64,000 bases of DNA from Microbacterium sp. B35-30 (GTDB lineage Bacteria; Actinomycetota; Actinomycetes; Actinomycetales; Microbacteriaceae). The position numbers were made by a program, and so were the translations under genes. Location: the NCBI RefSeq assembly GCF_010634855.1, contig NZ_MWLQ01000008.1, positions 1 to 64,000 of the forward strand, read 5' to 3'. Of this stretch, positions 7,708 to 25,945 are shown piece by piece. The first letter of the stretch is position 1, and each line of letters begins with the position of its first letter. The notes under the pieces are model-generated. The model made no database searches and was not told where the DNA came from. It saw only the letters and a program-made list of their open reading frames with translations.

Positions 7708-7756
7708 GGATACCGCACCCGGGCGTGGTGCGGTAGACTGGCCGCACAACGGACGA

Positions 7757-7775: not shown

Positions 7776-7786
7776 GAGGGGATCGC

Positions 7787-8557
7787 ATGATCGATAAGAC
7801 CGTGGGCTCCGTCGAGGACGCCGTGGCCGGCATCCGTGATGGAGCGACCATCATGATCGGCGGCTTCGGGCGCGCCGGGCAGCCCGTGGAGCTGATCGAC
7901 GCCCTCATCGCCCAGGGTGCCGGCGACCTCACGATCATCAACAACAACGCGGGCAACGGCGACACGGGGCTGGCAGCCCTCCTCGCCAAGAAGCGCGTGC
8001 GAAAGATCGTGTGCTCCTTTCCCCGTCAGCACGACTCGTGGGTGTTCGACGACTTGTACCGGGCCGGTGAGATCGAGCTCGAGCTGGTGCCGCAGGGCAA
8101 TCTCGCCGAGCGCATCCGGGCAGCGGGCGCGGGCATCGGGGCGTTCTTCTCGCCGACCGGCGTCGGCACCCAGCTCGCCGACGGCAAGGAGCTCCGCGAG
8201 ATCGACGGGCGCACCTATGCGCTCGAGTACCCGATCAAGGCGGATGTCGCGCTGGTGGGCGCGTACCGGGCCGACCGCTGGGGCAACCTGATCTACCGAG
8301 AGACAGCGCGCAACTTCGGTCCGATCATGGCCGCCGCCGCCTCGACCACGATCGTGCAGGTCGACGAGATCGTGCCGCTCGGGTCGCTCGACCCCGAGAC
8401 GGTGGTCACGCCGGGCATCTTCGTCGACCGCGTGGTCGCCGTGGGGGAGCGCGCGTGGCTGCGTGACGGCGCCTTCGTCGGGGGCGTGGACATCGAAGGG
8501 CGCGCCCTCGCGGACGCGTCGACAGCCTCAGCGACCGGAGCGGAGGGCGACCAGTGA
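7787..8557 (+). CDS. pcaI: 3-oxoadipate CoA-transferase subunit A
   Basis: 256-residue alpha subunit of the family I CoA-transferase that moves CoA from succinyl-CoA to 3-oxoadipate. Family hallmarks are the GGFGRAGQP loop near residue 25, NNNAGNGDTGLAALL and CSFPRQHDSWVFD. The ATG follows AGGAGGGG. The last about 14 residues (DASTASATGAEGDQ) are encoded by a family-C repeat copy and lie beyond the conserved core. GTGA overlap with pcaJ. The promoter carries a TAGACT -10 and two palindromic sites. Confidence 0.95.
   Translation: MIDKTVGSVEDAVAGIRDGATIMIGGFGRAGQPVELIDALIAQGAGDLTIINNNAGNGDTGLAALLAKKRVRKIVCSFPRQHDSWVFDDLYRAGEIELELVPQGNLAERIRAAGAGIGAFFSPTGVGTQLADGKELREIDGRTYALEYPIKADVALVGAYRADRWGNLIYRETARNFGPIMAAAASTTIVQVDEIVPLGSLDPETVVTPGIFVDRVVAVGERAWLRDGAFVGGVDIEGRALADASTASATGAEGDQ
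8516..8538. repeat. Family-C element at the 3' end of pcaI
   Basis: TCGACAGCCTCAGCGACCGG matches the copy inside the 25-kb FAH gene (25331-25353) at 18 of 20 positions. It is read in frame as the PcaI C-terminal tail. Confidence 0.55.
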
Positions 8558-9264
8558 GCGCCACAGAGTCCACGACGCCCGCCACGCGCATCACGCGCCA
8601 GCAGCTCGCGGCGCGCATCGCGCAGGACATCCCCGAGGGCTCCTACGTCAACCTCGGCATCGGGGCGCCGACGCTCGTCGCCGACTACCTGCCGCACGAC
8701 CAGGAGATCATCCTCCACACCGAGAACGGGATGCTCGGAATGGGACCGTCGCCGGCCGCCGGCGAGATCGACCCCGACCTCATCAACGCCGGCAAGCAGC
8801 CGGTCACCGCGCTCGCCGGATCCGCGTACTTCCACCACGCCGACTCGTTCGGCATGATGCGCGGCGGTCACCTCGACGTGTGCGTGCTCGGTGCGTTCCA
8901 GGTGTCGCAGGCGGGCGACCTCGCCAACTGGTCGACGGGGGCGCCCGGCGCCATTCCCGCCGTCGGCGGCGCGATGGATCTCGCGATCGGCGCGAAGAAC
9001 GTCTACGTCATGACCGACCTGCTCACCAAGACCGGGGAGTCCAAGCTGGTCGAGGCGTGCACGTATCCGCTCACCGGCGTCGGGTGCGTCACCCGCGTGT
9101 ACACCGACCGCGCCGTCTTCGACGTCACTCCCGACGGCTTCGCGGTGCGGGAGGCGTTCGGCGACAACACCGTCGAGCTCCTCGCCGAGCTCACCGGACT
9201 GGAACTGACCGATGCATCGGAGACAGCGGATGCCGCGACCCGCAGCATCCGGGAGGAGAACTGA
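8554..9264 (+). CDS. pcaJ: 3-oxoadipate CoA-transferase subunit B
   Basis: 236-residue beta subunit. The catalytic Glu lies in HTENGMLGMGP (about residues 54-64), the site that forms the glutamyl-CoA intermediate in family I transferases. GIGAPTLVADYLP and GGAMDLAIGAKNV are also conserved. The GTG start overlaps the pcaI stop (GTGA). pcaF begins 1 bp after its stop, so I, J and F form one operon. Confidence 0.95.
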   Translation: MSATESTTPATRITRQQLAARIAQDIPEGSYVNLGIGAPTLVADYLPHDQEIILHTENGMLGMGPSPAAGEIDPDLINAGKQPVTALAGSAYFHHADSFGMMRGGHLDVCVLGAFQVSQAGDLANWSTGAPGAIPAVGGAMDLAIGAKNVYVMTDLLTKTGESKLVEACTYPLTGVGCVTRVYTDRAVFDVTPDGFAVREAFGDNTVELLAELTGLELTDASETADAATRSIREEN

Positions 9265-9265
9265 C

Positions 9266-10438
9266 ATGGCGACCCACATCTATGACGCCGTCCGCACGCC
9301 GTTCGGGCGCGCCGGCGGTGCCCTGTCGGGCGTGCGGCCCGACGACCTCGCCGCGATCGTGATGAAGGCGACGGTCAAGCGCACCGGCCTCGACCCGGCC
9401 CGGATCGACGACGTCATCTTCGGCGATGCGAACCAGGCAGGCGAAGACAACCGCAACGTCGCGCGCATGGGTGCGCTGCTGGCGGGGTTTCCGACATCCG
9501 TCACGGGCGTCACGGTGAACCGGCTGTGCGCCTCGTCTGTCGAGGCGGTGATCCAGGGATCCCGTGCGATCGAGGCCGGTGACACCGACATCGTGCTCGC
9601 GGGCGGCGTCGAGTCGATGAGCCGCGCGCCGTATGTCGTCGAGAAGTCCCCGCGGCCGTGGCCGAGCGTGGGCAACCAGACGATGTGGAACACGTCGATC
9701 GGGTGGCGCATGACCAACCCGAAGCTGCCGAAGCAGTGGACGATCTCGAACGGCGAGTCCGCCGAGCTCATCGCGCGCGAGTGGGGCATCTCGCGCGAGG
9801 CGCAGGACGAGTTCGCCGTGCGCTCGCACCGGCTCGCCGCCGAGGCATGGGCGGCAGGGCATTACGACGGCGAGATCGTGCAGGTGCCAGGGGCGGAGCT
9901 CGCCCGCGACGAGGGCATCCGCGACGACACCTCGGTCGAGAAGCTCGCGGGGCTGAAGGCGCTGTTCGCGGCCGACGGCGAGGGAACGGTGACGGCCGGC
10001 AACTCGTCGCCGATCAACGACGGCGCGTCCGCCGTGCTCCTCGCCCGCGAGGGTGCGCTGCCTGGCGAGCCGCTCGCCCGCATCACCGCGCGGGCCGCTC
10101 ACGGCGTCGACCCCGACCAGTTCCCGATCGCGCCGATCGAAGCCGCGAACAAGGCGCTGGCGCGCGCCGGTCGCACCTGGGCGGACGTCGACTTCGTCGA
10201 GCTCAACGAGGCGTTCGCGTCGCAGTCGCTCGCGTGCCTGGCCGGTTGGCCCGAGCTCGATCCCGACAAGCTCAACGTGCACGGCGGCGCACTGGCGATC
10301 GGCCATCCGCTCGGCGCCTCCGGCGGGCGCATCATCGGCCACGCCGCGCACGAGCTGCGTCGGCGCGGCGGCGGGGTGGCCGTCGCCGCCATCTGCATCG
10401 GCGTCGGGCAGGGCCTTGCCGTCGTGCTGGAGCGTTGA
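9266..10438 (+). CDS. pcaF: 3-oxoadipyl-CoA thiolase
   Basis: 390-residue thiolase that splits 3-oxoadipyl-CoA into succinyl-CoA and acetyl-CoA, the last step of the pathway. Nucleophile Cys in NRLCASSVEAV (about residue 89), His in AIGHPLGASGGR (about 347) and acid/base Cys in AICIGVGQG (about 377) are all present. GGGAGGAG precedes the ATG at 9266. This completes a full pcaHGBDCIJF set in the window. Confidence 0.95.
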   Translation: MATHIYDAVRTPFGRAGGALSGVRPDDLAAIVMKATVKRTGLDPARIDDVIFGDANQAGEDNRNVARMGALLAGFPTSVTGVTVNRLCASSVEAVIQGSRAIEAGDTDIVLAGGVESMSRAPYVVEKSPRPWPSVGNQTMWNTSIGWRMTNPKLPKQWTISNGESAELIAREWGISREAQDEFAVRSHRLAAEAWAAGHYDGEIVQVPGAELARDEGIRDDTSVEKLAGLKALFAADGEGTVTAGNSSPINDGASAVLLAREGALPGEPLARITARAAHGVDPDQFPIAPIEAANKALARAGRTWADVDFVELNEAFASQSLACLAGWPELDPDKLNVHGGALAIGHPLGASGGRIIGHAAHELRRRGGGVAVAAICIGVGQGLAVVLER

Positions 10439-10546
10439 CGCGCGCCGCTGGTCGAAACTTCACGAATGCACACTCTCAGCTCGAATTCGATGGCATCTGT
10501 GAAGTCTCGCGATGCGAAGCACGGGTAGACGGGTAGATCGGCAGGC

Positions 10547-10562
10547 TCTACCAGGGTAGAAT
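10547..10562 (+). promoter_or_regulatory. VapBC operator overlapping a leaderless -10
   Basis: TCTACCAGGGTAGA (10547-10560) is a perfect 6-2-6 palindrome overlapping TAGAAT (10557-10562), which lies 6 nt before the vapB ATG. Two direct GGGTAGA words lie at 10523-10538. This suits the autorepression typical of VapBC complexes and a leaderless vapB mRNA. Confidence 0.6.
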
Positions 10563-10568
10563 CGGCGG

Positions 10569-10874
10569 ATGAGTCTGAACATCAAGAACGAGCGCACGCA
10601 CGCGCTCGTGCGCGAGCTCGCCGAGCTCACCGGCATGAGTCAGACGAGTGCGGTGGAAGATGCGGTACGCCGGCGCCTGGACGAGCTCCGGACGGATGCG
10701 ACGACGCGAGGCCATCGCCCTGCACCGAAGTTCTCCTCCACGGAGATCGAACGACGGCGTGCGGCGGTGGAGCGGATCCTCGATGAACTGCACGCGGAGA
10801 CGACGCCCGCTCAATGGCGGGCGTTGGCGCGAGCACAAGATGAGATGTACGACGACTTGGGTCTTCCCCGGTGA
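10569..10874 (+). CDS. vapB: VapB-type antitoxin (Rv0623-like)
   Basis: 101-residue antitoxin. The N-terminal part (MSLNIKNERTHALVRELAELTG, then SQTSAVEDAVRRRLDEL) matches the Rv0623-like ribbon-helix-helix class. The charged C-terminal half, ending QDEMYDDLGLPR, should wrap the toxin. The start fits a leaderless transcript (TAGAAT, 6 nt, ATG), and no Shine-Dalgarno sequence is visible. Its stop overlaps the vapC GTG (GTGA), usual for toxin-antitoxin coupling. Confidence 0.88.
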   Translation: MSLNIKNERTHALVRELAELTGMSQTSAVEDAVRRRLDELRTDATTRGHRPAPKFSSTEIERRRAAVERILDELHAETTPAQWRALARAQDEMYDDLGLPR

Positions 10875-11275
10875 TCGTCGACACCTCGGCCGTCGTCGCC
10901 GTTCTGAAGCGCGAGCACGGGCACGAGCGACTGCTCCGCCTGCTGCTGACGTATCCGGCGCGGATGTCGGCGCCCGTCCTCGTCGAGACGCGGATCGTCG
11001 TGACCTCGAGTGTCGGACCCATCGGGCTGCGTCGGCTGCACGCACTCCTCGCCCAGGCCGATGTCGAGATCGTGGCGTTCGATGAAGCGCACGCGGACAT
11101 CGCCGCTGACGCCTACCGTGACTATGGGAGAGGCTCGCGGCATCCGGCGCGACTCAACTTGGCCGACGCGTACAGCTACGCGCTCGCCTCCGCGGCGGAC
11201 GAGCCGTTGCTTTTCGTGGGCGACGACTTCTCGCGCACCGACGTCCGCTCCGCCCTCGAGGAGTACGGCGAATGA
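10871..11275 (+). CDS. vapC: VapC-type PIN-domain toxin
   Basis: 134-residue PIN-domain ribonuclease. The acidic metal site is visible: D4 in MIVDTSA, Glu in VLVETRIV (about residue 39), Asp in NLADAYSYALA and Asp in FVGDDFSRTD. VapC toxins cleave specific RNAs when VapB is degraded. The active site looks intact, so I expect a working toxin. Unusually, its stop overlaps the start of the pcaR-type regulator by ATGA, tying the toxin-antitoxin pair to a catabolic regulator. Confidence 0.9.
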   Translation: MIVDTSAVVAVLKREHGHERLLRLLLTYPARMSAPVLVETRIVVTSSVGPIGLRRLHALLAQADVEIVAFDEAHADIAADAYRDYGRGSRHPARLNLADAYSYALASAADEPLLFVGDDFSRTDVRSALEEYGE

Positions 11276-12096
11276 GCGACGCTGCCGAGGCCTCGCCCAC
11301 GGACGCGTCGCCGCGCTCCGACACCGTCCAATCGCTTGCGCGCGGGCTCGCGGTGATCCGCGCGTTCGACGCGGAGCATCCCGAACTCACGCTGAGCGAG
11401 GTCGCGCGAGGAGCCGGCATCACCCGTGCCGCGGCGGGCCGGTTCCTGCGCACACTGGAAGAGCTCGGCTACGTGCGCGCGTCAACCGTCCCGGCGAACG
11501 GGTCGGGCGTCGGTCGCACATTCGCGCTCACCCCGCGGGTGCTCGAACTGGGCTTCAGTTACCTGTCAGCGCTGTCGATCCCCGAGATCGTGCAGCCGCA
11601 TCTCGAGCGGCTGTCGCGCGAGGTCGACGAGAGCGTGTCGGCGGCCGTCCTCGACGGCGAGGAGATCGTGTACATCGCGCGCGTGCCGACGCGCCGCATC
11701 ATGAGCGTGCGCATCACGATCGGCACGAGGTTCCCCGCCTTCGCGACGTCCATGGGACGCGTGCTGCTGGCCGGGATGCCGGCTGCTGAGCGCGACGCGC
11801 TGCTCGCGGCATCCGCACTCCACGCCTTCACCGACCGCACCCTGACGAGCCCCGGCGCGCTGCGTGACGAGCTGGCACGGGTGGCCGAGCAGGGCTGGGC
11901 GCTGGTGGACGGCGAACTCGAGCCCGGCCTGCGCTCGGTGGCCGTGCCGCTGCACGATCGCCGTGGGGACGTGGTCGCGGCGGTCAACGTCTCGACCAGC
12001 GCGACCCGCGACAGCGTCGATCACGTCGTGGCGCAGTACCTGCCGCCGCTGCAGCGGACCGCGGCGGCCATCGACGCCGAGCTGCGCCTGGTCTGA
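11272..12096 (+). CDS. pcaR: PcaR/PobR-type IclR regulator of the beta-ketoadipate pathway
   Basis: 274-residue IclR protein. The N-terminal block VQSLARGLAVIRAFDAEHPELTLSEVARGAGITRAA is divided here as VQSLARGLAVIRAF and LTLSEVARGAGITRAA; both parts are characteristic of the PcaR/PcaU/PobR subfamily. The C-terminal effector domain spans about residues 90-270. These proteins sense protocatechuate, 4-hydroxybenzoate or 3-oxoadipate. GTTCG..CGAAC palindromes before pcaI and before the MarR gene are likely sites. It has no promoter of its own in view and starts within the vapC stop (ATGA), so it is probably co-transcribed with vapBC or read through from pcaIJF. Confidence 0.85.
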   Translation: MSDAAEASPTDASPRSDTVQSLARGLAVIRAFDAEHPELTLSEVARGAGITRAAAGRFLRTLEELGYVRASTVPANGSGVGRTFALTPRVLELGFSYLSALSIPEIVQPHLERLSREVDESVSAAVLDGEEIVYIARVPTRRIMSVRITIGTRFPAFATSMGRVLLAGMPAAERDALLAASALHAFTDRTLTSPGALRDELARVAEQGWALVDGELEPGLRSVAVPLHDRRGDVVAAVNVSTSATRDSVDHVVAQYLPPLQRTAAAIDAELRLV

Positions 12097-15960: not shown

Positions 15961-16914
15961 TCAGGTCAGCGGGCGGTCGGGGACGTGGGCTCCGGCATCC
16001 ACGATCCGTCCCGCTTCGACGAAGAGGTCGCGCATCCAGGCATGTTCGGGATCGCGGCCGTGCACCGGGTGCCACCACAGCGCATTGGTCAGGGGCGTCG
16101 GGTCGAAGGGCAACCCCACCACGCGCACGCCCCCGGCGCGCAGGGCCAGGGGCGCGATGGCAGCCTGGATGATGGCGACGCGCGAGGTGCCGACGATGAA
16201 GTGCGTCATGGAGAGGAAGCTCTCGACCACGACCTCGATGCGCGGCTCGATGCCGAGCTGCTGCACCTGTCTGGCCGCCGACGTGAACGCCGAGCGCGAC
16301 TGGTACGTCATCGCCCAGGGCAGTTCGCCCAGCTGCTCACGGGTCAGGACGTCGCCCACGGCGTCGTTGGAATCGGCCACGATGGCCACCCAGTCGTCGT
16401 GCCAGAGGTCGGCGTAGGGCAGCTCCGAGAGCGGCCCGTGCGGGATGATGATGCCGTCGACCGAGCGCAGGCGCGCGGCCGCGTCATCCACGATGGCGGG
16501 GTTGTGCAGCATGAAGCGGAAGCGCACGCCGGGGGCGCGCTCCTCCGCCAGCCGCGACACCACGTTGCCGACCGTCACGAAACCGTAATCCGAGCCGTAG
16601 ATCGCGAACTCGCGCGTGGACTCCTCGGGCGACCACGTCGCCTGGCTCTCGAACACCCGGCGCGCGGCCTCCAGCGCCGCCGTCGTGTGGTCGGCGAGAT
16701 GAAGGGCGAACGGGGTCAGCTCGTAGGTGTTGCCGCGTCGCGCGAGGATCGGATCGTTGAAGTGGGTGCGCAGGCGCGCGAGGGACGCGCTCAGCGCGGG
16801 CTGACTGAGGTGCAGGCGCTCGGCCGCGCGGGTCACGCTGCGCTCGGTGAGGAGCGCGTCGAGGGCGACGAGCAGGTTGAGGTCGAGGCGGGAGAGCAGC
16901 GGTCGGTCGGACAC
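15961..16914 (-). CDS. LysR-family regulator divergent from the extradiol dioxygenase
   Basis: 317 residues: N-terminal LysR helix-turn-helix (RSVTRAAERLHLSQPALSASLARLR) and a C-terminal periplasmic-binding-like co-inducer domain. The GTG at 16914 is preceded by AAGGAA. It is divergent from the dioxygenase/FAH/monooxygenase/amidohydrolase operon, the arrangement of naringenin-responsive FdeR and its operon in Herbaspirillum. Residues before the DLNLL block match the second LysR at 21661-22626, so the two are paralogues. Probably an activator of the operon at 17058-21602, with an aromatic or flavonoid co-inducer. Confidence 0.88.
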   Translation of the reverse strand: MSDRPLLSRLDLNLLVALDALLTERSVTRAAERLHLSQPALSASLARLRTHFNDPILARRGNTYELTPFALHLADHTTAALEAARRVFESQATWSPEESTREFAIYGSDYGFVTVGNVVSRLAEERAPGVRFRFMLHNPAIVDDAAARLRSVDGIIIPHGPLSELPYADLWHDDWVAIVADSNDAVGDVLTREQLGELPWAMTYQSRSAFTSAARQVQQLGIEPRIEVVVESFLSMTHFIVGTSRVAIIQAAIAPLALRAGGVRVVGLPFDPTPLTNALWWHPVHGRDPEHAWMRDLFVEAGRIVDAGAHVPDRPLT

Positions 16915-17057
16915 GGCGATGTGTTCCTTCGGTTTGGGACGCTGGGATCAGTGTATCCACGAGATTTATGCAGGGGATAGTCGATATCGCGTTGCTGGAT
17001 GACCTGGCCGCGGCGAGAGTGGTCCAGGGAACACCGAAGTCGTTGAAGGGATCGAAG

Positions 17058-18095
17058 ATGATCAAACTCCTGTCTCACCTGTCGTATGTGGCGATCACGT
17101 CGCCGGACGTCGAGGCATCCGTCGAGTTCTACAAGAACCAGGTCGGCCTCGTCGAGGTCGACCGCATCGACGGCGCCGTGTACCTGCGCTGCTGGGGCGA
17201 CTACTACGCCTACTCGGTCGTGGTCGTGCCCGGCGACGAGCCGGCCCTCGACACGATGGCCTGGCGCACCTCGAGCGCCGAGGCGCTCGAGGAGGCCGCC
17301 CGCCGCATCGAGGCCGCCGGCGTCGAGGGCGAATGGCTCGACGCCGTGCCGCACATCGGCCGCGCGTACCGCTTCACCGGCCCGTGGGGTCACTCGATGA
17401 CGCTCCACTGGGATGTCACCCGCCACCACGCCACCGACGCGAACGCGCTCGCGGGCGAGTCCGCCTCGATCTACCCCGACCGCCCGTCGCGGCGCAGCAA
17501 GGTCGCCGGCGCGCCGCGCCAGCTCGACCACGTCACGATCGCGTGCAGCGACGTCGACGCGTTCGCGGCCTGGTACAACGACGTGCTCGGCTTCCGCATC
17601 ATGGCGCGCACGGTCCTCGACGAGGCCCCGATCTCGGTGTTCTCGGTGCTCACCACGAACGAGAAGTCGCACGACCTCGGCGTCGTGCTCGACGGCTCGA
17701 GCCGCGCCGGACGCATCAACCACTACGCCTTCTGGGTCGACACCCGTGAGGAGCTGCTCATCGCCGCCGACGTCCTGGGCGAGAACGGCTACCCGATCGA
17801 GTACGGTCCCTCGATCCACGGCATCGGGGAGCAGAACTTCCTGTACTACCGCGAGCCGTCGACCCTCCGCATCGAGCTGAACACCGGCGGCTACCGCAAC
17901 TACGTTCCCGACTGGGAGCCGAACACCTGGCGGCCGTCGCAGGGCTCGAACAACTTCTACCGCAACAGCGCCATGCCGATGTCGATGACCGAGTCGTTCC
18001 CGCCCGCCGACGGTCCGTCGGCGACCGAGGAGGGCGTGCCCGACGAGATCAAGGAAGCGCTCTTCAACCCCTACGCCAAACACGGCCAGGGCTGA
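17058..18095 (+). CDS. Type I extradiol (VOC) ring-cleavage dioxygenase
   Basis: 345 residues in two vicinal-oxygen-chelate modules (about 1-145 and 150-300). The 2-His-1-Glu iron triad is visible in the second module: H158 (QLDHVTI), H222 (INHYAFW) and E273 (LRIELNT). It should cleave a catechol-like ring next to the hydroxyls. I start at ATG 17058, behind GAAGGG at 7 nt; an in-frame upstream ATG at 16968 lies in the promoter. Substrate unknown. Context (FAD hydroxylase, FAH hydrolase, divergent LysR) parallels FdeC of the flavonoid pathway; homoprotocatechuate-type substrates are an alternative. Confidence 0.88.
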   Translation: MIKLLSHLSYVAITSPDVEASVEFYKNQVGLVEVDRIDGAVYLRCWGDYYAYSVVVVPGDEPALDTMAWRTSSAEALEEAARRIEAAGVEGEWLDAVPHIGRAYRFTGPWGHSMTLHWDVTRHHATDANALAGESASIYPDRPSRRSKVAGAPRQLDHVTIACSDVDAFAAWYNDVLGFRIMARTVLDEAPISVFSVLTTNEKSHDLGVVLDGSSRAGRINHYAFWVDTREELLIAADVLGENGYPIEYGPSIHGIGEQNFLYYREPSTLRIELNTGGYRNYVPDWEPNTWRPSQGSNNFYRNSAMPMSMTESFPPADGPSATEEGVPDEIKEALFNPYAKHGQG

Positions 18096-18102
18096 GACCC
18101 GG

Positions 18103-18134
18103 CCGGGGCGGCGCGGCCGATCGCGCCGCCCCGG
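18103..18134 (+). terminator. GC hairpin between the dioxygenase and FAH genes
   Basis: A perfect 13-bp stem (CCGGGGCGGCGCG with complement 18122-18134) and a 6-nt loop lie between two genes of the same operon, 30 nt before the FAH start. It may attenuate transcription or protect the upstream mRNA. Confidence 0.7.
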
Positions 18135-18164
18135 TCGCACCATTCGAACCCCCAGGAAGCAGAC

Positions 18165-19154
18165 ATGACGACGACGTCGACCGCACCCGAAGCCCCCTTC
18201 GCCCTCGCCCGCTACCGGGAGGAGGGTGGTGTGCGCCTGGGCCTCGTGGCCGGCGACCGCATCCGCCCGCTCGCCTCCGACGACCTCGGTGCGCCCGGAC
18301 TGAACGCCTTCCTCGCCGCCCCCGACTGGGACCGGCTGGCGACGCTCGCGAAGAACGCCGAGGGCGGATGGATGCCGCTGGCCGACGTGACCCTGACGGC
18401 GCCGGTCGAGCCGCGACAGGTGCTGCAGACCGGTGCGAACTACCGGCAGCACGTGATCGAGCTGGTCGCGGCGGGGCTCACGAACAACAGCGATCGCACG
18501 CCCGAGGAGGCGCGTGAGTCCGCGGCGAAGATGATGGACGACCGTGCCGCGAACGGTGAGCCGTACTTCTTCATCGGCCTGCCCGCGTGTGTGGTCGGCG
18601 ACGACGTGCCGCTCGCGCTGCCGGCCTACAGCGAGGTGCACGACTGGGAGCTCGAGCTCGCCGTCGTGATCGGCCGCGAGGCGTTCCGCGTCTCTCGCGA
18701 GGAGGCGCTCGACCATGTCGCGGGGTACACCATCGCCAACGACATCACCACGCGCGACCTCGTCTTCCGCAAGGACATGAAGGAGATCGGCACCGACTGG
18801 TACCGCGCGAAGAACGCGCCCGGCTTCCTGCCCACCGGACCCTTCCTCGTGCCGGCGCCGTTCGTCGACGGCTCGGACCTCGCCGTGCGGCTCGAGCTCA
18901 ACGGCGATGTGATGCAGGATGCCTCGACCAGCGACCTGCTGTTCGACATCCCGGCTCTCATCTCCGGCGCCTCGCAGACCATGCCCCTGCTGCCGGGCGA
19001 CATCCTGCTCACCGGCAGCCCTGCCGGCAACGGCCAGCACTGGAAGCGGTTCCTGCGCGACGGCGATGTCATGACGGGCACCATCGCCGGTCTGGGCACC
19101 CAGGTGGTCCGCTGCGTCGCGGATCCCGTCGCCGATCCCGCGGCCGCCCGATGA
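18165..19154 (+). CDS. FAH-superfamily C-C hydrolase
   Basis: 329 residues. An N-terminal cap (1-80) precedes the fumarylacetoacetase-like core. Metal-binding acids are visible in HDWELELAVVIG (about residues 162-173) and ANDITTRD. The family hydrolyses or decarboxylates 1,3-diketo acids produced by ring fission, so it probably acts on the product of the adjacent extradiol dioxygenase. AGGAAG precedes the ATG. One of four FAH paralogues in the window; their different flanking genes suggest different substrates. Confidence 0.87.
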   Translation: MTTTSTAPEAPFALARYREEGGVRLGLVAGDRIRPLASDDLGAPGLNAFLAAPDWDRLATLAKNAEGGWMPLADVTLTAPVEPRQVLQTGANYRQHVIELVAAGLTNNSDRTPEEARESAAKMMDDRAANGEPYFFIGLPACVVGDDVPLALPAYSEVHDWELELAVVIGREAFRVSREEALDHVAGYTIANDITTRDLVFRKDMKEIGTDWYRAKNAPGFLPTGPFLVPAPFVDGSDLAVRLELNGDVMQDASTSDLLFDIPALISGASQTMPLLPGDILLTGSPAGNGQHWKRFLRDGDVMTGTIAGLGTQVVRCVADPVADPAAAR

Positions 19155-19156
19155 TG

Positions 19157-19226
19157 TCCCACTTTCTGCCCATCGTGTCCCGATTCCGATTGGTTCAGCC
19201 CACCGCAATCGATCGAAATCGGGACA
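19157..19226. repeat. Nested inverted repeat with TGTCCC words (possible IS481-like end remnant)
   Basis: Outer arms TGTCCCGATT (19176-19185) and AATCGGGACA (19217-19226) are perfect. Inner arms CGATTG and CAATCG (19187-19192, 19206-19211) nest inside. Another TGTCCC lies 20 bp upstream. Repeated TGTCCC near a terminus recalls IS481-type ends, but no transposase or partner end is present. An operator or hairpin is equally possible. Confidence 0.4.
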
Positions 19227-19254
19227 TGCTGACCGCAGGCACAAGAGGCTTCGC

Positions 19255-19392
19255 GTGAGCACGCCTTCCGAGCACCCCGCCGACCTCGACCGCCGGAACC
19301 CCGAGGCTGAGATCGCCGCGCGCGCGGCGGCTCACCGGCGCACCCGCCGCGAGGGCTTCGGCTCGCCGATCCGCCCCGTGGCCATCCTCTGA
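19255..19392 (+). CDS. Small hypothetical protein (45 aa) before the FAD monooxygenase
   Basis: A GTG-started frame preceded by AAGAGG, ending 36 bp before the monooxygenase. The peptide is short and charged: an acidic start (STPSEHPADLDRR), then an Ala/Arg helix (EAEIAARAAAHRRTRREG) and the end FGSPIRPVAIL. I recognise no family. Support is the ribosome-binding site, operon position and a protein-like composition. It could instead be a chance frame in a 5' leader. Confidence 0.4.
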   Translation: MSTPSEHPADLDRRNPEAEIAARAAAHRRTRREGFGSPIRPVAIL

Positions 19393-19428
19393 CCCGCACA
19401 CCATCCTGAAGAACAGAGAGGTTCTGAC

Positions 19429-20565
19429 ATGACCGCCGTACGCAAGGTCGCCGTCATCGGCGCCGGAGTCACCGGCCTCGCCGCCGCCATCCAGCTCGCG
19501 AAGGCGGGCGTCGAGGTCGACGTCTTCGAGGCGAAGCCCGAGCTCAGCGCGCTCGGCTCCGGCATCTCGCTGCAGGGCAACGCCCTGCGCGTCTTCGACG
19601 CCCTGGGCGCGTGGGACGACATCCGCGCTGCCGGCTATCCCTTCGAGGGCCTCAACCTGCGCGCGCCCGGACCGGCTGCGCCGATCGTCGCCGAGCTCCC
19701 GGACGTCAAGACGGGCGGGCCGGATTATCCGGCGGCGATGGGGATGCCGCGGCCCGCGCTCGCGCAGATCCTGCTGGCCCATGCGGAGAAGGCGGGCGCC
19801 CACGTGCGCTTCGGCGTGAAGCTGACGGCGCTGGAGACCGGCCCCGGCGACAGCGTGAGCGTGGTCGTCGACGGCGAGAGCGCGGAGGAGTACGACCTCG
19901 TGATCGGCGCGGACGGTCTGCACTCGACGGTGCGGGAGCTCATCGGCATCGACGAGAAGCCGCAGCCGACCGGCATGGGCATCTGGCGCACCTTCGTCTC
20001 GCGCCCCGCCGACGTCGTGCGCAGCGAGCTGTACTACGGCGGCCCGGTCTACATCGCTGGCTACACGCCGACCGGCGACGACACGATGTACGCCTTCCTC
20101 GTCGAGAAGGCGCAGGACCGCTTCGCCGTCTCGGACGAAGAAGCCACGCGCATCATGCTCGAGGAGTCGCGTGCGTATGGCGGGCCGTGGAACGCCATCC
20201 GCGCCGACCTCGAGAAGGGAGCGCGCGCGAACTACACCTGGTTCACCCAGCACATCGTGACCGAGCCGTGGAACCGCGGACGGGTGGTGATCATCGGGGA
20301 TGCCGCGCACTCGTGCCCGCCGACGATCGCCCAGGGCGCGGCGCAGGGCCTCGAAGACGCCTTCGTGCTGACCGAGCTGCTCACCTCGCGCGACGCCGTG
20401 GACCAAGGGCTGTGGGACGAGTTCCACGCACGACGGCTGCCGCGTGCGACCGCGGTGGTGGAGGCATCCGTCCAGCTGGGCCAGTGGCAGATCGACGGCA
20501 ACCGCGACGCGGACGCCGGCGGGCTGATCTTCGGCATCGCACAGAAGATGGCGCAGCCCGCATGA
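19429..20565 (+). CDS. Class-A FAD-dependent aromatic monooxygenase
   Basis: 378 residues with the three flavoprotein-hydroxylase fingerprints: GAGVTG dinucleotide motif (residues 11-16), the DG motif in IGADGLHSTVR (about 160) and the GD motif in IIGDAAHSCPP (about 290). It should hydroxylate an electron-rich ring using NAD(P)H and O2, making a catechol for the dioxygenase upstream. Closest in style to salicylate and 3-hydroxybenzoate hydroxylases; FdeE of the naringenin pathway has the same function class. AGAGAGG precedes the ATG. Overlaps the amidohydrolase by ATGA. Confidence 0.9.
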   Translation: MTAVRKVAVIGAGVTGLAAAIQLAKAGVEVDVFEAKPELSALGSGISLQGNALRVFDALGAWDDIRAAGYPFEGLNLRAPGPAAPIVAELPDVKTGGPDYPAAMGMPRPALAQILLAHAEKAGAHVRFGVKLTALETGPGDSVSVVVDGESAEEYDLVIGADGLHSTVRELIGIDEKPQPTGMGIWRTFVSRPADVVRSELYYGGPVYIAGYTPTGDDTMYAFLVEKAQDRFAVSDEEATRIMLEESRAYGGPWNAIRADLEKGARANYTWFTQHIVTEPWNRGRVVIIGDAAHSCPPTIAQGAAQGLEDAFVLTELLTSRDAVDQGLWDEFHARRLPRATAVVEASVQLGQWQIDGNRDADAGGLIFGIAQKMAQPA

Positions 20566-21602
20566 GCGCCGGCGAAGCCGGAGCGATCACCCGCACCGCG
20601 GTCACCGATGTCCACGCCCACCTTCTCCTGCCTGCGCTGCATGCGGAGGTGGAGCGGCGGGCGCCGGAGGGCGTGGCCGAGGCCGCCGACCTCGAGCGTC
20701 GCCGCAACGGCGTCGAGAGCCTGCAGGCCTCCGGGGCGATGGTCGGCGCGCGCATCCCGAAGCTCACCGACGTGAACGCACGGTTGGCCGCGATGGATGC
20801 GCAGGGCGTTGAGCGGCAGTGGGTCAGCGTATCCCCGAACCATTTCTACCCGTGGGCGCCTGAGGGTCTTGCGGTGTGGGTGGCCATGGAGACCAACCGC
20901 CTCATCGCCGAGCACGTCGCGCAGGCACCCGACCGGCTCACCGGGCTCGGAGTTGTGCCACTGCAGCATCCGTCGCGGATCGTCGAGTATCTCGACGACG
21001 CCGTGCTCGGGCGGGGGCTCGCCGGCGTCGAGATCTCGTCGTTCGCCGGCGACGTCGAACTGTCGGACGAACGACTCGAGCCGTTCTGGGCGCGTGCGGC
21101 CGAGCTCGGGTGCGTCGTGTTCCTGCACCCGTTCGGCTGCAGCCTCGACGAACGGCTCGACCGGTTCTACCTGTCGAACACCGTCGGCCAGCCCACCGAG
21201 AACGCCGTCGCGCTGTCGCACCTGATCTTCGCGGGCGTCCTCGACCGCCACCCGGGCCTCAAGATCGTCGCCGCGCACGGCGGCGGCTACCTGCCGTTCG
21301 CGATCGGCCGATCCGACCGCGCGTGGCGCGTGCGACCCGAGGCCCACGGCTGCGTGCACGAGCCGTCGAGCTACCTGAAGAAGCTCTGGTTCGACACCGT
21401 CGTGCACGACCCGGTCGCGCTCCGGCACCTGGTCGAGGTGGCCGGCGCGGGCCGCGTGCTGCTGGGAAGCGACTTCCCTTTCGACATGGGCCTGGACGAC
21501 CCGGTCTCCTTCGTGCGCGGCGCCGGCCTGCCCGCCGAGCTCACCCAGCGCATCCTCGGCGGCAACGCCGACGCGCTCCTCGCGACCAAGGTGCCGGCAT
21601 GA
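20562..21602 (+). CDS. ACMSD-like amidohydrolase (probable decarboxylase)
   Basis: 346-residue TIM-barrel metal enzyme. Zinc-site residues are visible: H18 and H20 (DVHAHLLLP), His in FLHPFG (about 189), His in AAHGGGYLP (about 239) and Asp in GSDFPFDMG (about 304). This is the pattern of the ACMSD/gamma-resorcylate/5-carboxyvanillate decarboxylase family, which removes CO2 from aromatic or ring-opened acids. In this operon it could decarboxylate a hydroxybenzoate such as 2,4,6-trihydroxybenzoate, or the meta-cleavage product. Translationally coupled to the monooxygenase. Confidence 0.87.
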   Translation: MSAGEAGAITRTAVTDVHAHLLLPALHAEVERRAPEGVAEAADLERRRNGVESLQASGAMVGARIPKLTDVNARLAAMDAQGVERQWVSVSPNHFYPWAPEGLAVWVAMETNRLIAEHVAQAPDRLTGLGVVPLQHPSRIVEYLDDAVLGRGLAGVEISSFAGDVELSDERLEPFWARAAELGCVVFLHPFGCSLDERLDRFYLSNTVGQPTENAVALSHLIFAGVLDRHPGLKIVAAHGGGYLPFAIGRSDRAWRVRPEAHGCVHEPSSYLKKLWFDTVVHDPVALRHLVEVAGAGRVLLGSDFPFDMGLDDPVSFVRGAGLPAELTQRILGGNADALLATKVPA

Positions 21603-21606
21603 GGCA

Positions 21607-21623
21607 CGCCCGGTGCACGGGCG
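21607..21623. terminator. Small hairpin between convergent genes
   Basis: CGCCCG and CGGGCG arms around GTGCA lie just after the amidohydrolase stop and before the converging LysR stop. Short stem; weak evidence. Confidence 0.35.
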
Positions 21624-21660
21624 GTTCCCGCGCAGGGGACGGCGGCGCCTGATCCGATCG

Positions 21661-22626
21661 TCAGGGTGTCATGCGGAGGCGCTTCGGCAGCGGTCCGCTG
21701 GGCTCGCGCGACAGCGTGGGGACGGTGCGCATCAGCGCCTCGCGCAGCCAGACGATGGCTGCGTCATCCTCGTCGCGGGGGTGCCAGTAGACGCACTCCC
21801 TCATCGGAATCGTGATTCCCTCGGGCAGCTCGAAGATCGCCAGGTGGAGGGTGCGCGACGCTTTCGCGGCCAGCATCCGAGGCACGAGCGCCACCATCTC
21901 GGTGCCCGACACGAGCAGCGGAAGCGAGGCGAGACCGAACAGCCGCGCGCCGACGACGTGATCGATGCCGGCTTTGCGGAGGACGTCCTGCATGTTGTCG
22001 TGGTCGGGGTCGTTCAGGTACGCGATGGCGTGCGGCAGCTCCGACAGGCGGGCGATGCTGGGCTCCGGAGAGGACAGCGCGGCGTTCCCGGGATCGGCGA
22101 TGAGCACGAAGTCATCGGTGAACAGCGCTTGGCTGTCTCCCGGGATGTTGAACCCGACCGGCCCGACGATGACGTCCAGCCGACTGTAGGGACTGAGCGT
22201 TCCGTCGCGCTCCGGCTGCGGAACGAAATCGACGGACGCGCGCGGGGCCATCTCCGAGAACGTCCGCAGCAGGGGCCCCGCAAGGATCGCCGTCATGTAG
22301 TCCGTCGCACCGATGACGAAGCGCCGCTCTGTCTGGGTGGGATCGAAGGACTCCTTCCGGTCGATCACCGGCTCCAGTTCGCGCACGGCGCGACTCACGG
22401 CCGGAAGCAGATCCCGCGCGAACGGCGTGAGCTGCATCGTGCGACCGGCGCGCACCAGCAGATCGTCGTCATAGTGCCGGCGCAGCCGGGCCAGCGCGGC
22501 CGATGTGGCGGGCTGGCTCAGATGCAGCCGCTCGGCGGCGCGCGTGACGTTCCGCTCTTCGAGCAGCGCCAGGAGCGGACGCAGCAGGTTCAGATCGAAC
22601 GTCGCCAACGTCGCCTTCCTATCCAT
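21661..22626 (-). CDS. LysR-family regulator divergent from an MFS carrier
   Basis: 321 residues from ATG 22626. HTH: RNVTRAAERLHLSQPATSAALARLR, nearly the same as in the LysR at 15961-16914. I prefer 22626 over the in-frame ATG at 22644 because it leaves about the same short lead before DLNLL as the paralogue has; neither start shows a clear Shine-Dalgarno sequence. Divergent from the MFS/MBL/FAH operon (22746-25945), its likely target. The gap holds TGGTGTGGATACCA-like and TGCATGAATAC words, candidate LysR half-sites. Confidence 0.85.
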   Translation of the reverse strand: MDRKATLATFDLNLLRPLLALLEERNVTRAAERLHLSQPATSAALARLRRHYDDDLLVRAGRTMQLTPFARDLLPAVSRAVRELEPVIDRKESFDPTQTERRFVIGATDYMTAILAGPLLRTFSEMAPRASVDFVPQPERDGTLSPYSRLDVIVGPVGFNIPGDSQALFTDDFVLIADPGNAALSSPEPSIARLSELPHAIAYLNDPDHDNMQDVLRKAGIDHVVGARLFGLASLPLLVSGTEMVALVPRMLAAKASRTLHLAIFELPEGITIPMRECVYWHPRDEDDAAIVWLREALMRTVPTLSREPSGPLPKRLRMTP

Positions 22627-22745
22627 GGTGTGGATACCACGCATGCCCGATTGCAGATTGCATGAATACTACGCCGTTGAAACCATGGAACGTCGCACGC
22701 GGACGCGCGGCATCCGACTTCACCGTTGAAGGAAGCAGTACCCTC

Positions 22746-23981
22746 ATGGCCGAGACCATCACGTCACCCAGCCCATCCCAGGCCAAGGCATCCGGCGAGT
22801 TCCGCCGCGGATGGCCGACGCTCGTGTTCAGCACGTTCGGCGCGGCGGTGGGCCTCAGCTCGCTGGGCTACATCCTGGGCACGATGGTCGTGCCGCTGCA
22901 GGCGGAGTTCGGCTGGGGGCGGGGCGAGATCAACCTCGCGTCCCTGATGAGCTCGCTCGGGCTGGCGGCAGCGCTCCCCTTCGTCGGCCGATTCCTCGAC
23001 CGGTTCGGCGTCAAGCGCGTCGCGATCATCTCGATCCCGCTCTTCGTGCTCATGCTCGTCATGATCGGCCTGTTCACCACGAGCCTGGCGACCTTCCTCG
23101 CGTTCTACGCGCTCGCCGGCATCCTGGGCGCCGGAACCTCGGCCGTGACGTACTCCAAGGCCGTCGTCGAGAAGTTCGACCGTCGCCGCGGCATCGCCCT
23201 GGGCATCGTCGCCGGCGGGCTCGGCGCGGCCGGTCTGTTCCTGCCACCGCTCATGGGCATCGTGATCGCCGACAACGGCTGGCGCGCGGCGTACCTCACG
23301 ATGGCGCTGCTCGGTGCGCTGCCGTTCGTCCTCGTGTTCTTCGCCCGCCTCAGCGCACCGGCAACCGTCGCGGCGGTGGACCGCTCCACACTGCCGGGAC
23401 TCACGGTCGCGACCGCCCTGCGCAACCGGGCGTTCTGGAGCCTGTGCGTCGTCTTCTTCCTGCTCGGCTGGGCGCTGTTGACGATGGTGCCCCACTTCGT
23501 TCCGCTGCTGATCGACTCCGGAGTCGATCCGGTGCGGGCCGCGTTCCTGTCGTCGCTGGTCGGAGTGGGGACCGTCATCGCCCGGCCGCTGATCGGCTGG
23601 CTCTTCGACCGGTTCTACGCCACCTATGTCGCCGTCCCCCTCTTCCTCGCTGCCGCGCTGGGGTGCCTCCTCCTGCTGTGGGCCGGCCCGAGCTTCGCCC
23701 CGCTGACCGCGCTCCTCATCGGCATCGGATTCGGCGCCGAGATCGACCTCATGGGGTACCTCAGCTCGCGCTACTTCGGCCCGCGCGCCTTCGGCACCCT
23801 TTACAGCATCGTCTACAGCGTGTTCATGATCGGCAGCGCCTTCGGCCCGGTCACCGCCGGCTTCGCGTTCGATGCCACGGGCAGCTACGACATCCCCCTC
23901 ATCACGGCCGCGAGCATGATGGTGGTCGCCACCGTCATCCTCCTGACGCTGCCGCGCTTCTCGAAGGAGACCGACGCATGA
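22746..23981 (+). CDS. MFS transporter (oxalate/formate antiporter-like), probable aromatic acid uptake
   Basis: 411 residues, about 12 membrane segments, with the MFS motif GRFLDRFGVKRV after TM2. The ATG at 22746 is preceded by GAAGGAAG; an ATG at 22662 exists but has no ribosome-binding site. Overlaps the MBL gene by ATGA and is divergent from a LysR gene. Its membership in a catabolic operon suggests import of an aromatic or organic acid. The substrate cannot be read from sequence. Confidence 0.85.
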   Translation: MAETITSPSPSQAKASGEFRRGWPTLVFSTFGAAVGLSSLGYILGTMVVPLQAEFGWGRGEINLASLMSSLGLAAALPFVGRFLDRFGVKRVAIISIPLFVLMLVMIGLFTTSLATFLAFYALAGILGAGTSAVTYSKAVVEKFDRRRGIALGIVAGGLGAAGLFLPPLMGIVIADNGWRAAYLTMALLGALPFVLVFFARLSAPATVAAVDRSTLPGLTVATALRNRAFWSLCVVFFLLGWALLTMVPHFVPLLIDSGVDPVRAAFLSSLVGVGTVIARPLIGWLFDRFYATYVAVPLFLAAALGCLLLLWAGPSFAPLTALLIGIGFGAEIDLMGYLSSRYFGPRAFGTLYSIVYSVFMIGSAFGPVTAGFAFDATGSYDIPLITAASMMVVATVILLTLPRFSKETDA

Positions 23982-24874
23982 CCGATGCCCCGCAGCTGCA
24001 GCGGCTCGCGGAAGGAGTCTGGGCGTACGTCCAGCCCGACGGCGGGTGGATGATCAACAACACCGGGCTGGTCGACGATCCGAGCGGTGCGACGAGCATC
24101 GACGTCGCCTCCACGGCCGCGAGGACGCGCGCGTACCTCGATGCGGCCGCACAGGTCGCGTCCTCGCCGATCCGGCGGGTGGTGCTCACCCACTCCCATC
24201 CGGATCACTGCAACGGCGCTTCGCTGCTGCCGGATGCCGAGATCGTCGCGCACCGCCGGGTCGCCGACGATCTGCGTGCGCCCCACCGGCTGGCACCGCA
24301 CATCTTCACGCCGTTCGTGCAGGGGGATGTCGCGCCGCGGATCCCGACGCTCGTGTTCGACGACGCGCTGACGATCGCGCCCGAAGGGCGACGGATCGAG
24401 GTGCGGCATCCGGGCACGCCCGCGCACACCACGGGGGATTCGTACGTCTGGCTTCCCGCCGAGCGGGTGCTCTTCACCGGCGACCTGGTCTTCCACGGCG
24501 GCACCCCGTTCGCGCTGTCGGGATCGCCCGTGGGCTGGCTGCGCGCCCTCGAGCAGATGGCGTCGCTCCAGCCCGAGATCGTCGTGCCCGGCCACGGGCC
24601 GGTCGGCGGGCCGGAGCTGTTCGCTCCCGTCGCGGATTACCTCCGGTTCCTGATCGACGCCGCGGCCGATGCGCGCGTTCGCGGGCTCTCGCCGCTCGAG
24701 GCGGCGCGCACGCTCGATCTGGGCCGGTTCGCCGGACTCGCGGAGAAGGAGCGGATCGTGGGAAACCTCCATCGCGCGATCGCCGAAGCGGAGGGCGGGC
24801 AGCCCGACATCCCCGCCGCCTGGCAGGACATGTACGAGTACAACGGCGCCCAGCCGCTGGAGTGCCATGCCTGA
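23978..24874 (+). CDS. Metallo-beta-lactamase-fold hydrolase
   Basis: 298 residues with the MBL metal motif HSHPDHCNG (about residues 72-80), GTPAHTTGDS, FTGDLVFHGG and PGHGPVGG, so both metal sites look complete. The family includes thioesterases, lactonases and cyclases. In this operon, between an MFS carrier and an FAH hydrolase, lactone or thioester hydrolysis in a ring-cleavage route is likely. Starts within the MFS stop (ATGA). The next gene begins 30 bp downstream. Confidence 0.85.
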   Translation: MTDAPQLQRLAEGVWAYVQPDGGWMINNTGLVDDPSGATSIDVASTAARTRAYLDAAAQVASSPIRRVVLTHSHPDHCNGASLLPDAEIVAHRRVADDLRAPHRLAPHIFTPFVQGDVAPRIPTLVFDDALTIAPEGRRIEVRHPGTPAHTTGDSYVWLPAERVLFTGDLVFHGGTPFALSGSPVGWLRALEQMASLQPEIVVPGHGPVGGPELFAPVADYLRFLIDAAADARVRGLSPLEAARTLDLGRFAGLAEKERIVGNLHRAIAEAEGGQPDIPAAWQDMYEYNGAQPLECHA

Positions 24875-24904
24875 TCCGCTCATCGCACGAGAGGAAGCGC
24901 CCGA

Positions 24905-25945
24905 ATGAGAATCGCCCGCTGGAGTCACGACGGTGCCGTCGACGAGGGGTTCGTCGTGGACGATCGCGTCGTCGGCTTCCCGGACGGTCTGACCGTCGCC
25001 GGGATCCTCGCCGGGGGACTGGATGCCGCGCACGCGGCGTTCGCGCACGTCCAGGGCGACCTCGGCGCCTCGCTCGCCGAGGTGCGGCTGCTCGCGCCGC
25101 TGGTGCCGGCATCCGTCCGCGACTTCGTCGCCTTCGAGGAGCACGTCGAGGGGGTGAGCGCGGGGGTGGAAGGCAAGAGCCACGTCGCCGACGAGTGGTA
25201 CGAGGCCCCCACGTTCTACTTCACGAACCCGCACACGATCCTCGGTCCCGGCGACGTGCTGCATCCACCGGTGACCCAGCGGCTCGACTTCGAGCTGGAG
25301 GTCGCGGTGGTCATCGGCGGTGCAGCGGGCGCTTCGACAAGCTCAGCGACCGGCGGGTCGGACGCGGCGACCGATGGCTCGGCGACCGGCTGGACCAACC
25401 TGACCGTCGAGGACGCGGCATCCGTCGTCTTCGGGTACACGATCATGAACGACTGGTCGGCCCGCGACCTGCAGGGCCGCGAGATGAAGGTGCGCCTCGG
25501 GCCCGCGAAGGGCAAGGACTTCGGGACCTCGCTCGGCCCGTGGATCGTCACGGCCGACGAGCTCGAGCCCTTCCTCGACGCCGACGGCTTCCTTGCGATC
25601 CGCGCCGAGGTCTACGTCAACGGCGAGCTCATCGGCGAAGACCTGGTGTCCAACGCCGGCTGGCCGTTCCCCGAGTTCGTCGCCTACGCGTCGCGCAATT
25701 CTCGCGTGGTGCCGGGCGACGTGCTGGGCAGCGGGACGGTTGGCAACGGCGGATGCCTCGGCGAGCTGTGGGGCCGCAACGGCAGGCTCGTGCCGCCGCC
25801 GCTGCAGCAGGGCGACGAGGTGCGCATGGTCGTGGAGGGCATCGGGGAGCTCATCGGCACGGTCGGCCTCGCGGTGCCGGCGCCGGAAGTGCCGCCCGCA
25901 CGCCCGCGTGCGCGTCTGCGGCGCCGGGAGATCGACCCCGCCTGA
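24905..25945 (+). CDS. FAH-superfamily hydrolase with a repeat-derived insertion
   Basis: 346-residue fumarylacetoacetase-type hydrolase. Recognisable blocks are DFVAFEEHVEG, FYFTNPHTILGPGD, LDFELEVAVVIGG and IMNDWSARDLQ, with metal acids in the last two. Between GG of the VVIGG strand and VEDAASVVFGYT lies an extra low-complexity segment, AAGASTSSATGGSDAATDG (about residues 139-157), where homologues have a short loop. Its DNA contains a family-C repeat. The loop position suggests the fold tolerates it. Last gene of the LysR-divergent operon; followed by two terminators. Confidence 0.85.
   Translation: MRIARWSHDGAVDEGFVVDDRVVGFPDGLTVAGILAGGLDAAHAAFAHVQGDLGASLAEVRLLAPLVPASVRDFVAFEEHVEGVSAGVEGKSHVADEWYEAPTFYFTNPHTILGPGDVLHPPVTQRLDFELEVAVVIGGAAGASTSSATGGSDAATDGSATGWTNLTVEDAASVVFGYTIMNDWSARDLQGREMKVRLGPAKGKDFGTSLGPWIVTADELEPFLDADGFLAIRAEVYVNGELIGEDLVSNAGWPFPEFVAYASRNSRVVPGDVLGSGTVGNGGCLGELWGRNGRLVPPPLQQGDEVRMVVEGIGELIGTVGLAVPAPEVPPARPRARLRRREIDPA
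25331..25353. repeat. Family-C element inside the FAH gene
   Basis: GCTTCGACAAGCTCAGCGAC plus CGG: the clearest intragenic copy of the TTCGACAAGCTCAG repeat, translated as ASTSSATG within an enzyme loop. Confidence 0.75.

Follow-up and report, generated by a model that had tools for sequence, protein, structure and literature searches.

Gene content and conservation of the unit

The window analysed here is a stretch of 64,000 nucleotides, positions 1 to 64,000 of contig NZ_MWLQ01000008.1 of Microbacterium sp. B35-30 (genome size 4.56 Mb). We found in it a unit of ring-cleavage genes (15961-25945) that probably opens plant flavonoid-like rings as the naringenin-degradation (FDE) pathway of Herbaspirillum does, and several of its steps appear to be carried out by unrelated, interchangeable enzymes. 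A sequence-only reading of this DNA had noticed a LysR gene divergent from genes for a VOC dioxygenase, an FAH hydrolase, a FAD monooxygenase and an amidohydrolase. All five are present as single intact open frames with the expected Pfam domains. The reading ended the operon at the amidohydrolase, however, and this part did not stand, since the unit runs on to 25945 with a second module. The features, with the short names used below, are as follows.

15961-16914, minus strand: LysR-type regulator (PF00126 and PF03466), divergent from VOC; in the same place in M. salsuginis (92%)
17058-18095, plus strand: two-domain, catechol-2,3-dioxygenase-like VOC extradiol dioxygenase (VOC), from Pfam and H158/H222/E273
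18165-19154, plus strand: FAH-superfamily hydrolase (FAH1; PF01557, 199 bits), a proposed acylpyruvate hydrolase
19251-19392, plus strand: deletion scar left by a PF04199 cyclase gene (5' piece at 19251-19337, 3' piece beginning at 19358)
19429-20565, plus strand: group A FAD monooxygenase (MO; PF01494, PRK06847), FdeE-type by a reciprocal test
20562-21602, plus strand: amidohydrolase (AHD; PF04909) of the 2-amino-3-carboxymuconate-6-semialdehyde decarboxylase (ACMSD) type, a proposed decarboxylase
21661-22644, minus strand: second LysR regulator (LysR2)
22662-23981, plus strand: MFS transporter (PF07690; 93% in L099)
23978-24874, plus strand: metallo-beta-lactamase-fold hydrolase (MBL; PF00753, motif HSHPDH), apparently replacing the cyclase
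24905-25945, plus strand: second FAH-family hydrolase (FAH2; PF01557)

The start of AHD overlaps the MO stop. Relatives have the gene order VOC-FAH1-cyclase-MO-AHD-FAH2; in the window, FAH2 lies instead behind LysR2, MFS and MBL. In M. salsuginis (L086 and L169) the row LysR2-MFS-MBL-FAH2 is a separate locus with the same order as here, and the window thus looks like two modules side by side. The nine genes show pN/pS values of 0.10-0.42 against the relatives compared, indicating that they are under constraint.

VOC is matched at 69-89% in 13 of 57 other genomes (numbered G; loci are numbered L), namely 12 of 34 Microbacterium genomes at 80-89% and one genome of another family (G048) at 69%. 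In 11 of the 13 it occurs together with FAH1, MO, AHD and FAH2; the other two, G011 and G048 (whose contig begins at VOC), lack FAH1 and AHD. The conservation of VOC and its companions across genomes shows that the gene set is not due to chance. Across the order, VOC (E ≤ 1e-110) occurs in 27 of 396 genomes and in nine of 109 genera. The named VOC relatives are the best 80 of 339 found with a VOC alignment headed by a protein of R. rhizogenes K84, and no Herbaspirillum is found among these 80. Locus comparisons cover 92 loci (80 named and 12 added by hand). These counts leave out six Microbacterium loci (L045-L050), all with AHD and FAH1, and L052, a second VOC copy in G022 (58%) that lacks AHD and MO and has a 54% FAH1 match along 249 of 329 residues. 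The operon does not always include the divergent LysR: in 18 of the 92 loci, a LysR with a match of at least 40% lies within reach.

Other VOC-bearing loci differ in content. Pseudoclavibacter and Agromyces loci (L079, L080, L083, L085 and L113) carry VOC at 68-69% and no other operon gene above threshold within 10 kb. Thermogemmatispora of the Chloroflexota (L069, L070, L081 and L084) carry, besides FAH1 (53-54%), a VOC of the window type (50-51%) and a monooxygenase of the FdeE type (39%). Matches to FAH1, AHD, MBL and two C-glycoside-related genes (GMC oxidase and CGD-alpha, see below) are split between frames in M. elymi (L129, 5-19 kb), reflecting either a decaying operon or sequencing errors. 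The viral contigs searched gave no match.

The predicted ring-hydroxylating and ring-cleaving enzymes compared with FDE

The VOC frame opens at 16968, and its homologues begin at 17058. Numbered from the latter start, H158, H222 and E273 are exactly where the sequence-only reading had put them, and they are invariant in eight of eight aligned rows. VOC scores 243.6 bits against the catechol dioxygenase model TIGR03211 (cut-off 320), 145.2 bits against the HpaD model TIGR02295 (cut-off 321.4) and only 58 bits against HPCD. Two HpaD positive controls (L158 and L029), one of them from the window's own genome, reach 427 and 431 bits and lie outside the operon VOC clade. On the sub-cut-off score and the separate placement of these two controls, we reject VOC as an HpaD.

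As FDE stand-ins we used plasmid clusters of Diaphorobacter HDW4B, Burkholderia anthina and Azospirillum B510. These have hydrolase, VOC, Rieske and FAD enzyme genes in a row (with an intervening EthD-domain gene in B. anthina), then cyclase and FAH, which is the FdeB-C-D-E order; judging from gene order, we take FdeB to be the hydrolase and FdeG the cyclase. The FdeC-type VOC of Diaphorobacter did not match the operon VOC in 58 genomes at E ≤ 1e-6, and its three matches lie elsewhere (G013, G010 and G004). The comparison that had been suggested for VOC, made with this stand-in, thus indicates that it is not an orthologue of FdeC. Window type and FdeC type also fall into separate clades of the VOC tree, which was made by a quick method and has long branches. 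Nonomuraea and Streptomyces plasmid loci possess FAH1, cyclase, MO, AHD, FAH2 and LysR together with a different VOC, which groups with the FdeC side, though on long branches. Judged from these placements, one VOC type appears to substitute for the other.

In Herbaspirillum seropedicae, FdeC and FdeE are listed as Hsero_1005 and Hsero_1007 (PMC10755750), and FdeD is described as a Rieske protein working with FdeE (PMC8552027). The comparison proposed for the monooxygenase turned out in favour of FdeE: with the Diaphorobacter FdeE-type query, all 14 operon genomes gave the operon MO as best match (E values of 6e-60 to 6e-49), and the best match in non-operon genomes is 2e-29. A second good match exists elsewhere in three of the 14 (G009, G016 and G021). 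MO is 34-36% identical to FdeE-type enzymes and scores above the PRK06847 cut-off (395 bits, cut-off 372). It reaches 87.7 bits with the salicylate hydroxylase model TIGR03219 (cut-off 446), 113.5 bits with the gentisate-side 3-hydroxybenzoate 6-hydroxylase model NF006021 (cut-off 459) and 64 bits with the 4-hydroxybenzoate hydroxylase model, and these three identities were rejected on the scores. Sequence comparison thus assigns MO to the FdeE-type hydroxylases. Neither the model scores nor the VOC tree place the enzymes with those for homoprotocatechuate, salicylate or gentisate, the outcome that would have spoken against the sequence-only reading.

The R. rhizogenes K84 locus has a window-type VOC beside an FdeE-type MO (40%), FAH (51%), cupin (48%) and FdeB-type hydrolase (51%). 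In Deinococcus aetherius the window-type VOC is accompanied by a hydrolase (67%), a cyclase (42%) and two FAD enzymes that match the FdeE type at 24% and 37%. These fde-like sets, together with the FdeE-type MO and the FdeB-type hydrolases of two sister operons, bear out the likeness in kind to FDE that had been proposed. Of the window's proteins, FAH2 comes closest to the FdeI-type FAH (32% over 195 aa). The other 13 operon genomes all have a full-length FdeG-type cyclase, and the window has only its scar. We found no match to an FdeD Rieske partner in the window or in 68 named loci, and the FdeB-type C-C hydrolase is absent from the window genome. The unit is thus predicted to work like FDE without being a member of it, because counterparts of FdeC, FdeD, FdeB and FdeG were looked for and are missing in the window.

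The features shared with the H. seropedicae pathway are the FdeE-type FAD hydroxylase, an extradiol VOC, FAH, LysR and MFS, as well as the cyclase in most relatives. Unlike FDE, the window has no FdeC orthologue, FdeD Rieske protein, FdeH cupin or FdeB, and it has an extra FAH1 and AHD and an MBL instead of the cyclase. The isoflavone cluster (IFC) of Variovorax, in the sections of its report drawn on here (PMC11069340), also attacks the A-ring with a FAD hydroxylase and then a VOC. Purified IfcA was active with NADPH, which is what one would expect of the window enzyme too, given that no Rieske partner is present. Unlike the window VOC, IfcB is 65.8% identical to FdeC, and the window operon has nothing corresponding to the IfcD cupins.

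Alternative parts for the later steps

AHD occurs in 53 of the 92 loci and an FdeB-type hydrolase in 20; none has both and 19 have neither. The corresponding numbers are 47, 16, zero and 14 for the 77 loci with 5 kb on either side of VOC, and 41, 13 and zero (AHD, hydrolase, both) for named loci only (n=68). Within the 77 loci, FAH1 (51) and the hydrolase (16) are never found together, and all 47 AHD genes are accompanied by FAH1. Mapped on the VOC tree, AHD covaries with FAH1 in 6-7 of seven independent pairs (p 0.016-0.031).

The FdeB-type query from Diaphorobacter (E ≤ 1e-20) matched two of 58 genomes, G048 and G011, each time at full length beside the operon VOC; G011 has an additional partial match (37%) elsewhere. 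FdeB-type hydrolases are 41-75% identical to the G011 protein, and that of Deinococcus is 67% identical to the Diaphorobacter one. Their nearest solved relatives are 2,6-dihydroxypseudooxynicotine hydrolase (2jbw) and 'Yellowish-green 1-like protein', which we take to be hydrolases that split acyl groups from hydroxylated rings at a C-C bond. For FAH1 the nearest solved proteins are HpcE-type isomerase/decarboxylases (136 bits), diketo-deoxyrhamnonate hydrolase (116 bits) and FAHD1 acylpyruvase (90 bits), and its NCBIfam scores are below every cut-off. AHD is nearest to ACMSD decarboxylases (4ign, 170 bits, versus 74 bits for gamma-resorcylate decarboxylase). Its H18, H20, H189, H239 and D304 are near-invariant in the alignment and presumably form the metal site (HxH, His and Asp) and the catalytic His base, so that the metal-site and catalytic positions of ACMSD are conserved. 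Unlike ACMSD, AHD stands in a different gene context, with no kynurenine-pathway gene among the operon genes. An AlphaFold model of AHD made without an alignment was uninformative (pLDDT 40.7). The nearest relatives of the three proteins and the alternation of these parts suggest that FAH1 and AHD would release pyruvate and then decarboxylate, replacing a single oxaloacetate-releasing cut.

The second exchange concerns the cyclase. The 274-bp gap between FAH1 and MO is not ordinary spacing but holds the deletion scar; about 0.87 kb of the G013 cyclase gene has no counterpart there, and elsewhere in the window genome the cyclase has only one weak partial match. Within at most 10 kb, MBL is found in two of four cyclase-less loci with AHD and MO, and in none of 46 with the cyclase. 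Genome-wide (E ≤ 1e-60), it is present in all six cyclase-less genomes with AHD operons (the window, L086, L099, L105, L129, and L067 at 45%) and in one of 47 cyclase-bearing genomes (12 + 35, a few of which may be counted twice, under both kinds of number). Six more of the latter show weak partial matches of 28-36%. The exception is G094, a Microbacterium metagenome-assembled genome with three operon copies (L135, L170 and L171), of which one has the cyclase and C-glycoside genes and two are cyclase-less with MBL. These three copies provide a natural test of the cyclase-MBL exchange. Sequence distribution thus indicates that MBL apparently stands in place of the cyclase in the window. Both families are metal-dependent hydrolases, and we therefore propose a lactone-type opening for MBL.

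Proposed substrate and pathway

The genes beside the operon in relatives give a clue to the substrate. The alpha subunit of a C-glycoside deglycosidase (CGD) is nearest to the solved protein 7dnm, the beta subunit to the DUF6379 chains 8umc and 8qvc, and the accompanying GMC oxidase to pyranose-oxidase types. In the 68 named loci, CGD alpha or beta lies near VOC in 20 and GMC in 19, with a median distance of about 4.8 kb for alpha. A CGD-alpha query taken from one VOC-linked locus had matches in seven of 58 genomes; all seven belong to the 12 other Microbacterium that carry the operon, and none of the 22 Microbacterium without it gave a match (Fisher 0.00015, window genome left out). In six genomes CGD-alpha shares a contig with VOC at a distance of about 4-5 kb, and in one it lies on another contig. 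Across the order, CGD-alpha (E ≤ 1e-40) was found in four of 396 genomes, three of them operon-bearing with the gene within about 5 kb (p 0.001). The CarABC, MtCGD and PurABC systems come from the same or neighbouring genera, and many relatives carry homologues of their genes at 4-5 kb from the operon; the systems perform deglycosylation only, however, and their genes are absent from the window genome. The word 'dioxygenase' was not found in the three main texts on them that were searched, and 'flavonoid' and 'naringenin' are not present in that of rhizoSMASH (PMC12462448). We found no description of this actinobacterial operon in the titles and abstract openings of open-licence PMC papers.

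With a little more than even confidence, we propose that the unit is a LysR-controlled aerobic pathway opening the A-ring of a flavonoid-type aglycone, 5,7-dihydroxychromone or similar. The sequences show gene families, their conservation, the alternation of parts and, in relatives, the linkage to C-glycoside genes, while the substrate, positions, order and every reaction of the following route are inferred. MO would hydroxylate next to an A-ring phenol (C8 in FDE and IFC), and the extradiol cut of the new catechol by VOC would give a pyranone with an acylpyruvate side chain. FAH1 would hydrolyse the acylpyruvate to pyruvate and a carboxylate on the pyranone, and the ACMSD-type AHD would release this carboxylate as CO2. 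Sister operons would cover both steps with one FdeB-type hydrolase, by a single C-C cut releasing oxaloacetate. MBL, substituting for the relatives' cyclase, would open the pyranone. FAH2 would split the remaining diketo acid, leaving an aryl acid for the upstream protocatechuate/beta-ketoadipate genes. The IFC intermediate X3, reported as a 2-hydroxy-4-pyranone in the consulted parts of that study (PMC11069340), fits this route. Protocatechuate/beta-ketoadipate domain genes are located at 1-10.4 kb and could take up the B-ring acid. The region beside the operon (1003-12096) contains these genes (a dioxygenase, a lyase, two CoA transferase genes and a thiolase) and IclR regulators. A GH78 rhamnosidase and a GH1 enzyme are also encoded in the window.

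Several observations weigh against this proposal. When relatedness is taken into account, the alternation of AHD and the FdeB-type hydrolase is not significant (3-5 of seven pairs opposite, none the same, p 0.06-0.25). That of cyclase and MBL is not significant on the VOC tree either, with two of three pairs opposite and too few pairs, in a test that scored L067 as lacking the MBL later found there. The MBL counts cover AHD operons, and nine cyclase-less loci of the hydrolase type are outside that search. The best solved relatives of FAH1 are HpcE-type isomerase/decarboxylases rather than acylpyruvases. In Variovorax, a mutant affected in the homologous hydrolase (locus 59470) could still degrade daidzein, according to the part of the IFC study consulted (PMC11069340). 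FdeB, FdeD and FdeH types have no match in the window, and likeness to FDE was measured on stand-ins and not on Herbaspirillum FdeC and FdeE themselves. CGD-alpha exists without the operon in G346 and was not found in the window genome, and CGD genes lie near the window-type LysR in only one of 18 LysR loci (L111 and 17 others). The C-glycoside link is thus borrowed from a differently regulated subset. LysR-type and CGD-linked operons seem to be regulated differently (ROK-family genes are found in 19 named loci), and the LysR type may serve other glycosides or free aglycones. Our confidence was lowered slightly because of this caution and the ranking of FAH1 relatives.

The broader idea remains tentative, at somewhat under even chances: flavonoid-type ring opening would be assembled from interchangeable non-homologous parts (two extradiol types, FAH1 and AHD for a C-C hydrolase, MBL for a cyclase) and joined in many Actinobacteria to C-glycoside cleavage. 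It would then form the half of soil C-glycoside catabolism that degrades the aglycone and has so far been missing.

The aglycone may instead be a different phenol of the polyketide type, set free from C- or O-glycosides, such as a xanthone (norathyriol), an anthraquinone (kermesic acid) or a dihydrochalcone (phloretin), with the same logic of hydroxylation, meta-cleavage, hydrolysis and decarboxylation. In the excerpts used, AgCGD1 and MtCGD take C6-glycosyl flavonoids as well as a xanthone glycoside, AgCGD2 takes a C8-glycosyl flavonoid, and MiCGD acts mainly on carminic acid (PMC8563793). C-glycoside oxidases and deglycosidases accept mangiferin and carminic acid besides flavonoids (PMC8563793, PMC10807413). 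The modest identity of MO to FdeE-type enzymes would also allow such a substrate. However, FdeB-type hydrolases and an fde-type cyclase, cupin or FAH accompany the window-type VOC, and we consider this explanation unlikely, at roughly one chance in a handful.

A monocyclic phloroglucinol-type route is improbable. Here AHD would decarboxylate 2,4,6-trihydroxybenzoate, a role suggested by the sequence-only reading, MO would hydroxylate phloroglucinol and VOC would open the ring. AHD does belong to a decarboxylase superfamily, a cupin is encoded at 35550-36095, and FAH enzymes would fit acylpyruvate products. AHD is, however, much closer to ACMSD, which we take to act after ring cleavage, than to gamma-resorcylate decarboxylase; it always occurs with FAH1 in the 77 loci and alternates with a C-C hydrolase type, which makes the trihydroxybenzoate role less likely. 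The further hydrolases would have no obvious substrate. The small cupin, which adjoins an esterase-like gene, lies 9.6 kb from the unit and was rejected as an FdeH-type enzyme (E 0.006 to the FdeH-type cupin).

Slightly less probable again is ordinary monocyclic meta-cleavage of homoprotocatechuate, or of 4-hydroxybenzoate by way of protocatechuate, which would be cleaved at the 2,3 position and processed by an ACMSD-like decarboxylase, presumably of the PraA/PraH type. The TIGR03211 and HpaD scores of VOC and the resemblance of AHD to a meta-cleavage-product decarboxylase are in line with it. Yet VOC remains below both curated cut-offs and low for HPCD, a separate gene of the window genome exceeds the HpaD cut-off outside the operon clade, MO scores poorly as a 4-hydroxybenzoate hydroxylase, and the C-glycoside gene linkage in relatives would be unexplained. 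That the window copy is decaying, its pathway broken in this strain by the cyclase loss, is very improbable: the cyclase is reduced to two pieces with one weak match elsewhere, but all other frames are intact and constrained, and MBL is present here and in five other cyclase-less genomes with AHD operons.

Two further features of the window were observed. Two small genes at 10569-11275, between the thiolase and an IclR regulator, resemble by eye a toxin-antitoxin pair, and G013 (L043) has the same pair in the corresponding place. A further FAH-like stretch at 42040-42720 (41% to FAH1 over 258 aa) follows an FAH gene at 40985-41860.

To our knowledge, the genetics of flavonoid A-ring catabolism has been described for a few Betaproteobacteria. 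The unit looks like a variant of this known kind of pathway, with a plausible predicted chemistry. If our proposal is true, it would represent an actinobacterial, and perhaps Deinococcus, form of this catabolism. It would suggest how aglycones are broken down in soil once C-glycosides have been cleaved, and give functions to clusters annotated merely as VOC, cyclase, FAH and amidohydrolase. The gene replacement would then be a testable prediction of chemistry, pyruvate and CO2 versus oxaloacetate.

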